Shown piece by piece: positions 1 through 6,789 of a DNA stretch of 6,789 nucleotides (position 1 is the first letter of the stretch; every line of letters starts with the position of its first letter). Origin of the DNA: an uncultured Ruminococcus sp. (GTDB taxonomy: Bacteria; Bacillota; Clostridia; Oscillospirales; Acutalibacteraceae). The position numbers and the translations under genes were made by a program. The stretch covers positions 1-6,789 of the forward strand of contig CACYDZ010000112.1 in the NCBI GenBank assembly GCA_902773265.1, read 5' to 3'. The notes under the pieces are model-generated. The model was not told the DNA's origin and searched no databases. It was given only the letters and a program-made list of their open reading frames with translations.

Positions 1-99
1 GGGCTGCCGCCCTTTAAAATCCTGCTAAGGGGCTGCCGCCCCTTAACCCCGCCCACTTTTTTGAAAAAAAGTGGACAAAAAACTTTCAAGTTTCACCGC
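1..99 (-). repeat. Three-hairpin intergenic repeat, unit 1 (cut by window edge)
   Basis: Read on the minus strand this unit has the order hairpin 0, hairpin 1, hairpin 2. Hairpin 0 spans 53-74 (arms CCACTTTTTT and AAAAAAGTGG). Hairpin 1 spans 26-45 (TAAGGGGC and GCCCCTTA around a 4-nt loop). Hairpin 2 spans 1-17 and lacks its outer left arm because the window starts inside it. A further small hairpin lies at 80-93 (AAACTT, TC, AAGTTT). Positions 1-100 match 286-385 with one mismatch (C50 versus T335). No protein reading is credible. I do not recognise a named repeat family. Confidence 0.8.
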
Positions 100-118
100 C
101 AGACCTCAGATAAACAAT

Positions 119-228
119 CCGAACGAAGTGAGCCAAAAAAGTTTTTGTCAAACTTTTTTCAAAAAGTTTGTGGGGTCAAGGGGTGAAACCCCTTGTAGGA
201 TTTTTAAGGGCAAAGCCCTTAAACTCCC
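119..228 (+). repeat. Three-hairpin intergenic repeat, unit 2
   Basis: This plus-strand unit sits head-to-head with unit 1. It starts with GAACGAAGTGAGCC (121-134). Hairpin 0 is at 149-170 (CAAACTTTTT and AAAAAGTTTG around TC). Hairpin 1 is at 177-195 (CAAGGGGT and ACCCCTTG around GAA). Hairpin 2 is at 203-223 (TTTAAGGGC and GCCCTTAAA around AAA). An alternative hairpin, 135-144 with 150-159, would compete with hairpin 0. Compared with unit 4, hairpin 1 carries paired changes on both arms, so pairing is kept although the sequence differs. Confidence 0.8.
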
Positions 229-238
229 CAAAAACAAA

Positions 239-264
239 ACAAAATTTGCGTATGCAAATTTTGT
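239..264. repeat. 11-bp inverted repeat with GTAT loop
   Basis: ACAAAATTTGC at 239-249 and GCAAATTTTGT at 254-264 are perfect reverse complements around a 4-nt loop. The hairpin lies between repeat units 2 and 3 and is absent from the other copies. It has no T-run after it on either strand, so it does not look like a classic terminator. Confidence 0.6.
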
Positions 265-280
265 CTGAAATTTTAGCCGA

Positions 281-385
281 TTAAAGGGCTGCCGCCCTTT
301 AAAATCCTGCTAAGGGGCTGCCGCCCCTTAACCCTGCCCACTTTTTTGAAAAAAAGTGGACAAAAAACTTTCAAGTTTCACCGCC
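281..385 (-). repeat. Three-hairpin intergenic repeat, unit 3
   Basis: This is the second minus-oriented unit and a near-exact copy of unit 1, complete at the hairpin 2 end. Hairpin 2 spans 281-302 (TTAAAGGGC and GCCCTTTAA around TGCC on the plus strand). Hairpin 1 spans 311-330 (TAAGGGGC and GCCCCTTA). Hairpin 0 spans 338-359 (CCACTTTTTT and AAAAAAGTGG). Hairpins 1 and 2 of this unit, read in reverse complement, match unit 5 at the window's other end in order, spacing and the linker GGATTTTA. Confidence 0.8.
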
Positions 386-404
386 AACACTTAGATAAGA
401 ATTT

Positions 405-509
405 CCGAACGAAGTGAGCCAAAAAAGTTTTTGTCAAACTTTTTTCAAAAAGTTTGTGGGGTTCAGGGGCGAAGCCCCTGATTAGGGGTTCGGGGGCTTC
501 GCCCCCGAC
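405..509 (+). repeat. Three-hairpin intergenic repeat, unit 4
   Basis: This plus-oriented unit ends six bases from the stop codon of the PqqD-like gene, which runs into it from the right. GAACGAAGTGAGCC is at 407-420. Hairpin 0 is at 435-456, hairpin 1 at 463-481 (TCAGGGGC and GCCCCTGA around GAA), and hairpin 2 at 490-508 (TCGGGGGC and GCCCCCGA around TTC). Bases 407-462 are identical to 121-176 of unit 2. On the minus strand it is the first thing transcribed after the PqqD-like gene. It could act as a 3' end or weak terminator, although no strong T-run follows the GC-rich stems. Confidence 0.8.
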
Positions 510-514
510 TACCG

Positions 515-769
515 CTATAACACGGATTTCTGACGAAGATAGGCGATAAATTTAACGACATCAGTTTTAGCTTTATCGAAAGAAACCTGATATTCTTTTG
601 ATAAATCAGTGGCAATCTGTTCAGGTGTTTTGTTCTGTTCAAGGCGTTTCCAGATAAAAGCACCTGTTTCATTCATGGTAATAAGGGAAGTAAATTGCTG
701 ATTGCTGTTTCCCAGAGGAACAAGCAGATATTCCCCGTCAATTTCTCGCAGTAAAAATTTTTGTTTCAT
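515..769 (-). CDS. PqqD-family protein (RiPP recognition element-like)
   Basis: The 84-residue product looks like a complete PqqD-family protein (family members are about 85-95 residues). The family hallmark is residues 32-42, MNETGAFIWKR, followed by a helical half with the usual 'TPEQIATDLSKEYQVS' pattern (about 48-63) and a C-terminal helix ending near 'LRQKSVL'. Known PqqD-like proteins are small winged-helix domains that bind the leader of a ribosomally made precursor peptide and present it to a modifying enzyme, often a radical SAM protein. The start is supported by AGGTGA a few bases upstream. An ABC exporter is transcribed divergently 77-83 bp away, which fits a peptide export role. 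No radical SAM enzyme, protease or precursor gene is visible here, so the pathway and the partner peptide are unknown. The family call is firm; the RiPP role is inferred. Confidence 0.85.
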   Translation of the reverse strand: MKQKFLLREIDGEYLLVPLGNSNQQFTSLITMNETGAFIWKRLEQNKTPEQIATDLSKEYQVSFDKAKTDVVKFIAYLRQKSVL

Positions 770-3175: not shown

Positions 3176-3224
3176 AGAAACGACAAATTGTATTTTTCAA
3201 AAATACAATTTGTCGTTTCTTTTT
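3176..3224 (+). terminator. Rho-independent terminator, 22-bp perfect stem
   Basis: Positions 3176-3197 and 3199-3220 are perfect reverse complements around a single central C, so the real loop is a few bases of the A/T top. The stem begins AGAAACGACAAATTG and is followed directly by TTTT. It lies about 100 bases after the HTH gene and would stop plus-strand transcripts before the convergent fumarase operon. On the minus strand the flank is TCTCTTAG, a poorer T-run. Confidence 0.75.
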
Positions 3225-3242: not shown

Positions 3243-3302
3243 AAAAAACGAACGAAGTGAGCCGAAAAAGTTTGACAAAAACTTTTTCGGCTCACTTCGT
3301 TC
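3243..3302 (-). terminator. Terminator of the fumarase operon, 24-bp perfect stem from repeat sequence
   Basis: Arms 3250-3273 and 3279-3302 are perfect 24-base reverse complements around GACAA. On the minus strand the stem is followed by GTTTTTT, giving a strong intrinsic terminator ten bases after the fumarase beta stop codon. Both arms contain GAACGAAGTGAGCC, the sequence that opens repeat units 2 and 4, and then AAAAAGTTT, so this hairpin is built from the same repeat family. Confidence 0.85.
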
Positions 3303-6696: not shown

Positions 6697-6789
6697 CAAC
6701 TAAAAGTTTTTGTCGAACTTTTTTCAAAAAGTTCGTGGGGTTCAGGGGCAACGCCCCTGATGGGATTTTAAAGGGCAACGCCCTTTAAC
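6697..6789 (+). repeat. Three-hairpin intergenic repeat, unit 5 (reaches window end)
   Basis: This unit lies downstream of the G5/3D gene, about 65 bases after its stop. Hairpin 0 is at 6714-6735 (CGAACTTTTT and AAAAAGTTCG around TC), hairpin 1 at 6742-6760 (TCAGGGGC and GCCCCTGA around AAC), and hairpin 2 at 6768-6788 (TTAAAGGGC and GCCCTTTAA around AAC). The opening GAACGAAGTGAGCC block is missing. A competing hairpin, 6702-6709 with 6715-6722, is followed by TT and might help end the gene's transcript. Loops differ from the other units while stems stay paired. Confidence 0.8.

Follow-up and report, generated by a model that had tools for sequence, protein, structure and literature searches.

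REP and REPIN sequences, as described in PMC2817692 and PMC3116915, are gene-less DNA thought to be mobilised by RAYT proteins. In its account of dimers, a survey of REPs notes a preference for heterodimers without explaining it (PMC3733652), and template switching between the hairpin arms of RNA stems has been described as a source of matched multi-base changes (PMC8794818). We compared with these systems a family of multi-hairpin repeats found in the window, by which we mean the whole stretch of 6,789 nt that was analysed.

Units and head-to-head dimers

The window is one entire contig (C112) of a draft genome (G000; 1,786,911 bases or 1.79 Mb, 388 contigs, 76.8% complete), so its first and last units are truncated at the contig ends. 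It encodes a PqqD-like protein, an ABC transporter, a Cro/C1-type HTH protein, two fumarase parts, and a G5/3D protein. By the G5/3D protein, the nearest named relatives are the uncultured Ruminococcus sp. MAGs RUG10751 (86% identity; our G020, with pattern places identical to those of G002) and RUG11803 (71%; our G021, identical in this respect to G003). Units were called with a sequence-only nhmmer profile made from 64 seed copies, which matched the window at 2-87(-), 136-232(+), 271-372(-), 422-515(+), and 6701-6788(+). This recovered all five units of the preliminary description at the places it gave, every one of them intergenic or at a contig end, and its hairpin order, matched arms, and loops read in the window as it described them. 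The features are as follows.

1..99, minus strand: unit 1, left half of dimer 1; H2 1-16 (truncated by the contig start), H1 26-45, H0 53-74, type I leader to about 100
118..228, plus strand: unit 2, right half of dimer 1; type II leader 118-134 (TCCGAACGAAGTGAGCC), H0 149-170, H1 177-195, H2 204-222
240..263, plus strand: H3, an A/T-rich hairpin (CAAAATTTGCGTATGCAAATTTTG) 3' of unit 2
281..385, minus strand: unit 3, left half of dimer 2; H2 281-302, H1 311-330, H0 338-359, type I leader
404..509, plus strand: unit 4, right half of dimer 2; type II leader 404-420, H0 435-456, H1 463-481
490-508: third hairpin of unit 4, of a different kind (TCGGGGGCTTCGCCCCCGA), its loop inverted relative to CGAAG
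6697..6789, plus strand: unit 5; H0 6714-6735 (CGAAC/GTTCG), H1 6742-6760, H2 6768-6788, truncated by the contig end
1..232: dimer 1, units 1 and 2 head-to-head with leaders facing; H0 unlike, CCAC against CAAAC
281..509: dimer 2, units 3 and 4 head-to-head; H0 unlike, CCAC against CAAAC
H0 arms: CCAC/GTGG at 53-74 and 338-359; CAAAC/GTTTG at 149-170 and 435-456; CGAAC/GTTCG at 6714-6735
H1 arms: TAAGGGG/CCCCTTA at 26-45 and 311-330; CAAGGGG/CCCCTTG at 177-195; TCAGGGG/CCCCTGA at 463-481 and 6742-6760
3250..3302: perfect inverted repeat with 24-bp arms and a 5-nt loop; a type II leader and unit start followed by its own reverse complement

The palindrome at 3250-3302 has the look of a unit that snapped back on itself by template switching, and is the sole such case in the stretches of G000 and RUG10751 examined. 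It lies close to another perfect hairpin (3176-3220), and near the syntenic place RUG10751 has an ordinary unit (L081:7963).

Units are ordered as leader, H0, H1, H2, and at times H3, which is present 3' of 154 of 457 units and has a GTAA loop in 77. The leader is of two types, each with variants: type I (AGCTGTGACAATTAAAAG) and type II (TCCGAACGAAGTGAGCCATAAAAG). Among 233 units, H1 is preceded by GTGGGG in 178 and by GTAGGG in five, and H2 by GTGGGA (95), ATGGGA (40), GCAGGA (30), ATAGGA (21), GTAGGA (14), or another sequence (33). An insert of about 20 nt (GGGAACACAGACACTGTGC), itself a small hairpin, occurs in the H1 loop of some copies and the H2 loop of others, at 12 places (L040, L042, L046, L051, L068, L074, two in L141, L122, L132, L157, and L168). 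A second repeat beginning with TCATTCCGAACGAAGTGAGGAATCT, seen in L040 and L170, has an end in common with the type II leader, as if it and the hairpin family had exchanged modules.

The preliminary description had treated the units as independent. Judging from how they pair, what replicates or functions is probably the head-to-head dimer: neighbours closer than 250 nt comprise 110 head-to-head pairs, 10 tail-to-tail pairs, and 13 and 12 pairs in the same direction. Spacing in head-to-head pairs is 40-59 nt in 101 of 110, and the linker averages 48.7 nt over 96 dimers. A type I leader faces a type II leader in 93 of the 110, one half is unscored in the other 17, and none is scored as I-I or II-II. 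Another genus (g107, genome G113) has head-to-head dimers with other stems; in the 14 stretches chosen there around matches, all 17 pairs join a CAAGCC stem to a TTAAGARAAC stem across a gap of 41-45 nt, some of them in tandem arrays.

The two halves of a dimer are consistently unlike. H0 is identical in four of 76 readable dimers (of 106) against a mean of 25.1 after shuffling (at least 14 in 2000 shuffles), and H1 arms agree in two of 48 against 9.3 expected (two of 2000 shuffles as low); dimers may stem from few founders, in which case shuffle counts overstate independence, and these probabilities are not literal. All four like-stemmed dimers have CCAC and differ in H0 length or H1. Stems are assigned to leaders both ways, type I carrying CCAC with type II carrying GAAC or AAAC and also the reverse, and dimers of RUG11803 are unlike-stemmed too (CAAAC with CCAC in L234; CCAAC with CAAGCC in L093 and L099). 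Perfect inverted matches stop at 17 nt in the 96 dimers whose halves were long enough to compare, whereas 20 nt or more is attained in 31% of swapped combinations. An assembly artefact is an unlikely cause for matches of 18-40 nt, and a possible one for the loss of whole-unit homodimers.

The idea that the halves differ so that each can fold locally was rejected, as the RNA folds join the halves. At minimum energy, the RNA of each window dimer folds across the halves into a single long and imperfect hairpin, not six local ones, with z-scores of -8.6 for dimer 1 and -7.3 for dimer 2 (-6.6 for dimer 2 as DNA). For 65 of 96 dimers, the cross-duplex outweighs the two folds formed locally; with swapped halves this share is 84%. 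The feature avoided in dimers is a long perfect palindrome.

Copies, placement and taxonomic spread

The preliminary description had suggested counting copies in the host genome and its relatives; they are very many, not few. A search with the pattern TTTTTNNAAAAAGTTNGNGGGG, allowing up to two mismatches, found 236 copies in G000 (123 forward, 113 reverse), 578 in RUG10751, and 70 in RUG11803, while the reversed pattern used as a control gave none in G000. With one mismatch the counts were 144, 332, and 49, and 1, 0, and 0 in the other three genomes of the genus. The pattern misses variants, since at a single locus of one of these (G001) the model gives two strong hits, at 96 and 89 bits. Of 100 pattern places listed for G000, at least 27 have a contig start no more than 100 nt away, which makes 236 a lower bound; this genome may be fragmented partly on account of the repeats. 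The nhmmer profile, run over 748 kb of RUG10751, called 345 units; in G000 it called 128, over 280 kb of stretches chosen around units.

Units lie between genes. Genes were called with a simple caller written for this analysis, and 11 of the 345 RUG10751 units fell within called genes. Fractions of occupied spacers are quoted for RUG10751 only, as the selection of G000 stretches around units biases them. Among sampled spacers of at least 100 bp, 209 of 327 held a unit; by type, occupancy was 40 of 52 (convergent), 142 of 213 (tandem), and 27 of 62 (divergent, the lowest fraction). In tandem spacers, orientation showed no bias, with 111 units along and 97 against the genes in RUG10751 (208 units) and 33:31 in G000 (64 units).

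A covariance model (R1) made from 60 units and used at E <= 0.001 matched 36 of 150 genomes and 34 of 135 genera of the window's family (with at most 29 matches counted per genome), and 53 of 245 genomes, 34 of 127 genera, and 13 families of the order. Seven of the 13 families had at least two matches in some genome. A draw across the phylum gave 3 of 249 genomes, one of them G000, the other two of 248 having a single match each. Matches in other genera and families mostly read AAAGTTTTNGNC - H0 - GGGG - H1 with quite unlike stems (H0 examples are CAAGC/GCTTG, CGACC/GGTCG, CCGCC/GGCGG, and CCACC/GGTGG), and in other genera the third hairpin is often TCG-stem-CGCA-stem-CGAAA. H0 was present, by eye, in the minimum-energy RNA fold of 18 of 20 one-per-genome units (exceptions in G034 and G001); R1 scores pairing, so cross-genus units favour paired stems and the sample is not unbiased. 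In a check by sequence only over six genomes, stems differed and were yet paired in 330 of 368 cells of H0 and 146 of 172 of H1, the poorest being H1 of G147 (8 of 16) and of G148 (8 of 12). Several genera (L211, L213, L214, L216, L219, L220, and others) have a conserved AGGAGGG-like stretch after the unit followed by more hairpins with variable stems (for example CAGTCC-GGT-GGACTG and GGGAACCC-GGGTTCCC), so that up to six hairpins may make up the element in these genera.

The preliminary description knew of no named family, and neither Rfam nor the open papers searched supplied one. In Rfam, the best hit in the window had E 0.061 and 27.3 bits against a gathering score of 90, which is no family match, and 12 cross-genus loci gave nothing but a tRNA; matches to plant and animal miRNAs (E 0.06-1) were taken as chance hairpin matches. 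Searches of open full-text literature aimed at such repeats, and others on template switching and BOX elements, with subscription papers and preprints outside their scope, found no description of the family. Carriage by phages or plasmids was considered and found no match: the exact degenerate pattern was unmatched in IMG/VR and the stretch 119-228 in INPHARED and PLSDB, searches that diverged relatives would escape.

Stem covariation and turnover in shared slots

Covariation of the stems is real. For the 233 of 473 units with parsed cores (the others were dropped), the two outer bases of the 5' arm of H1 share 1.91 bits with the 3' arm, 90% of what is possible after shuffle correction, and 0.61 bits (19%) with the loop between the arms. 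Arm-arm information is 92% for H0, 90% for H1, and 79% for H2, arm-loop information is 17-24%, and neighbouring hairpins share 8-13%. An arm is thus tied to its far arm more than to its own loop. Descent or linkage alone would be expected to bind it to the loop no less closely, and so does not account for this. An alignment of 60 units, covering H1 and H2 only, had 96.4% of stem cells paired (88.2% shuffled) and a covariation of 0.223, against 0.077 shuffled (0 of 500 shuffles as high) and at most 0.089 in controls with the 3' arm slid. Two of five measures on this alignment were not above shuffling: the number of two-sided changes was equalled or exceeded in 61 of 500 shuffles, and that of pair types in 333. 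With anchoring on the cores, in every unit with a readable hairpin, non-pairs numbered 2 of 398 at H0 position 3, 5 of 344 at H1 position 2, and 9 of 393 at H2 position 2; the loosest position, H1 position 3, had 41 of 344. G-T mismatches numbered 23 and A-C mismatches 14.

Changes in the stems are compensated far beyond shuffling, a check that the preliminary description had proposed. It had further called the covariation the signature of selection for the folded form. The covariation itself stands and is not by itself a signature of selection, because copies share descent and template switching can also give matched changes. Over ten stem positions in 233 units, a Watson-Crick pair that is not the commonest fills 531 cells, a one-sided mismatch 34, and another mismatch 28; 395 of the 531 are of transversion and 136 of transition type, counted as cells and not as events. 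Since one-sided changes are rare and transversion types dominant, arm-to-arm copying by template switching may contribute besides selection.

The slots occupied by units are mostly old. Of 29 comparable spacers in G000 and RUG10751, 10 have units in both genomes, two in one only, two in the other only, and 15 in neither (Fisher p = 3e-4, with spacer length uncontrolled), and a unit is retained in the other genome for 14 of 15 collinear clusters from the RUG10751 side and 13 of 15 from the G000 side. Within shared slots, the number, orientation, and stems of units are often unlike. Three orthologous pairs differ in a stem and retain the loop: CAA/TTG against TCA/TGA around CAACG (L043/L170), TAA/TTA against TCA/TGA around CAAAG (L063/L168), and GCA/TGC against TCA/TGA around CAAAG (L152/L119). 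Unit 5, behind the 3D gene, has H0 arms CGAAC/GTTCG, and the syntenic RUG10751 copy (L081:11456) has CCAC/GTGG. The view of units as new insertions was rejected, most slots being common to the two genomes; turnover inside old slots therefore dominates. Recent jumping was not observed in this comparison; the three clusters without a counterpart are near-empty sites, which favours mobility, and they show no clear target-site duplication.

Competing readings and known repeat classes

We favour, as on balance the probable reading, that these order-wide, gene-less, intergenic hairpin repeats are REP/REPIN-like non-autonomous mobile DNA, whose replicating form is likely the head-to-head dimer. A trans-acting enzyme would move the element by recognising its folded single strand, and could do so through the recurring GGGC/GCCC tips and small loops, set on freely variable stems. 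Only changes that keep the arms matched would persist, helped by arm-to-arm template switching, and correction of one arm from the other is a likely second ingredient. Dimers with halves too alike would form a long perfect inverted repeat and be lost, which would leave differing halves and favour diversity of stems. Of this reading, the number of copies, their placement between genes, the dimers, the covarying stems, and the relatives across the order are shown. Against it stand the search that tied no transposase to the units, the lack of a clear target-site duplication, and RNA folds that join the dimer halves.

An unlikely alternative is that the units are true REP, BIME, or REPIN sequences moved by a RAYT (Y1 tyrosine transposase) that is lost or unsampled in some hosts. 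REPs too, as described in PMC2817692, PMC3116915, and PMC3733652, form inverted doublets and exceed 100 copies outside genes, with compensated stems and a heterodimer preference; the heads of H1 and H2 (GTGGGG, GTGGGA, and the GTAG-bearing GTAGGA) are near the GTAG and TGTGGGA heads described for REPs, and broken pieces of Y1 transposase exist in RUG10751 and G000 (L171:11579-11942 and L261:1451-1585, neither adjoining a unit). However, Y1_Tnp (PF01797) was absent from 17 of the 36 positive genomes of the family and unmatched in G097, G147, G148, and G095, which are rich in units and 99-100% complete. Nor was it commoner in positive than in negative genomes (19 of 36 vs 52 of 114, assuming the same genome draw), and it has almost no flanking association with units: one of 21 Y1 loci had a unit within 300 nt, a count in which seven of the loci meet a contig end inside that distance and diverged units may escape the model. 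Over 150 family genomes and these 21 loci, spread driven by a RAYT was unsupported. The units might instead be functional RNA at mRNA 3' ends, acting as terminators or as barriers to exonucleases, whose stems are kept because the RNA hairpin works, which we hold to be improbable. The high occupancy of convergent (40/52) and low occupancy of divergent spacers (27/62) would suit such a role, as would the very stable hairpins (dimer z-scores of -7.3 and -8.6 as RNA), the GNRA-type loops of 82 of 154 H3 (the 77 GTAA, three GAAA, one GTGA, and one GCAA), and, in tandem units of other genera, 16 sense against 9 antisense orientations (not significant). Yet tandem orientation is unbiased in RUG10751 (111:97) and G000 (33:31), a T-run is absent directly after H0, H1, and H2 on either consensus strand, and separate terminators are found at 38 of 223 gene ends with units and 27 of 150 without (by a simple and weak finder), preceding the unit in 24 of the 38 cases. 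With no T-run after H0-H2, no orientation bias, and terminators equally common, units are probably not intrinsic terminators, and a terminator or mRNA-end role is the less likely one. Two narrower proposals were rejected: replacement of terminators by units, as terminator frequency is no different, and selection on RNA seen through G-U wobble asymmetry, as the mismatches with a known transcribed strand (15 wobble-compatible, 9 incompatible) are too few to decide.

Mutation might also act alone, with template switching at replication rewriting one arm from the other to produce covariation without selection on the fold, which seems to us distinctly unlikely. The mechanism is known for RNA stems (PMC8794818), one-sided changes are rare (34 vs 531 alternative-pair cells), 395 of the 531 are of transversion type and cannot pass through G-U, arms change while loops stay in the orthologous spacers too (L043/L170, L063/L168, L152/L119), and the window holds a perfect snap-back palindrome of a unit (3250-3302). 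The same process would, however, make the inverted halves of dimers alike, and they stay different. It would also invert loops, and inverted common loops are absent among 233 H1 and 233 H2, rare inverted ones being CGTTG in 2 of 227 H1 (looser parse), CTTCG in unit 4 of the window, ACTCCGT once in G097, and TTAC in 6 of 154 H3. From genus to genus the tips and loops return on changed arms, and spread to hundreds of sites is left unexplained by mutation only.

The reading as mobile DNA can be carried further, tentatively and with more doubt than conviction, to a new class of mobile DNA of one Bacillota order that is defined by its fold: a multi-hairpin heterodimer with a non-RAYT, tip-reading mover and template-switched arms, in which like halves would be a lethal or deletable palindrome. 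If true, this would supply a cause for the excess of REP heterodimers that the account in PMC3733652 notes and leaves unexplained, and the rule of unlike halves puts that REP observation in a testable form. The repeat occupies about two thirds of the sampled longer spacers of RUG10751 and reaches 13 families, with no match in Rfam or description found in open papers. Its copies amount to hundreds of natural experiments on stem evolution, whose matched arms, scarce intermediates, and free loops may separate selection from template switching.

Among described classes, the preliminary guess of a REP- or MITE-like element remains the best. Like MITEs, as generally understood and in part as described in PMC3049150, the units are short, gene-less, intergenic, highly base-paired, and probably mobilised in trans; they may differ from MITEs in that three near-empty sites, loosely defined element ends, and a transposase search with PF01797 revealed neither well-defined terminal inverted repeats nor a clear target-site duplication nor a parent transposon. 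With the pneumococcal BOX elements of PMC3049150, compared by description only, they share a composite, modular build, stable predicted folds, and past proliferation, whereas BOX is a boxA-boxB-boxC series and the units here form inverted halves with hypervariable matched stems. The GTAG- and CGTC-tagged REP dimers of PMC3733652 are likewise head-to-head with an unexplained excess of heterodimers, and CGTC REPs are described there as also lacking a dedicated transposase. CGTC stands directly before H0 in single units of G147, G136, G127, and G095, and TGTC in the window. Those REPs are single short palindromes, in contrast to the multi-hairpin units here, and the words "Firmicutes", "Clostridi", and "Ruminococc" are absent from the main text of PMC3733652.

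Relative to the REP, BIME, and REPIN sequences of PMC2817692 and PMC3116915, a half here has at least three hairpins over about 90 nt, in contrast to a single 20-40 nt palindrome, and the halves are told apart by two distinct leaders. No RAYT could be linked to the family, which is seen here in one Bacillota order. The family works like a REPIN, and with the RAYT link searched for and not found we do not call it one. It shares with those sequences more than 100 extragenic copies, inverted doublets of palindromes at fixed spacing, compensated stems, and lineage-specific abundance, and perhaps also GTGG- or GTAG-like heads.
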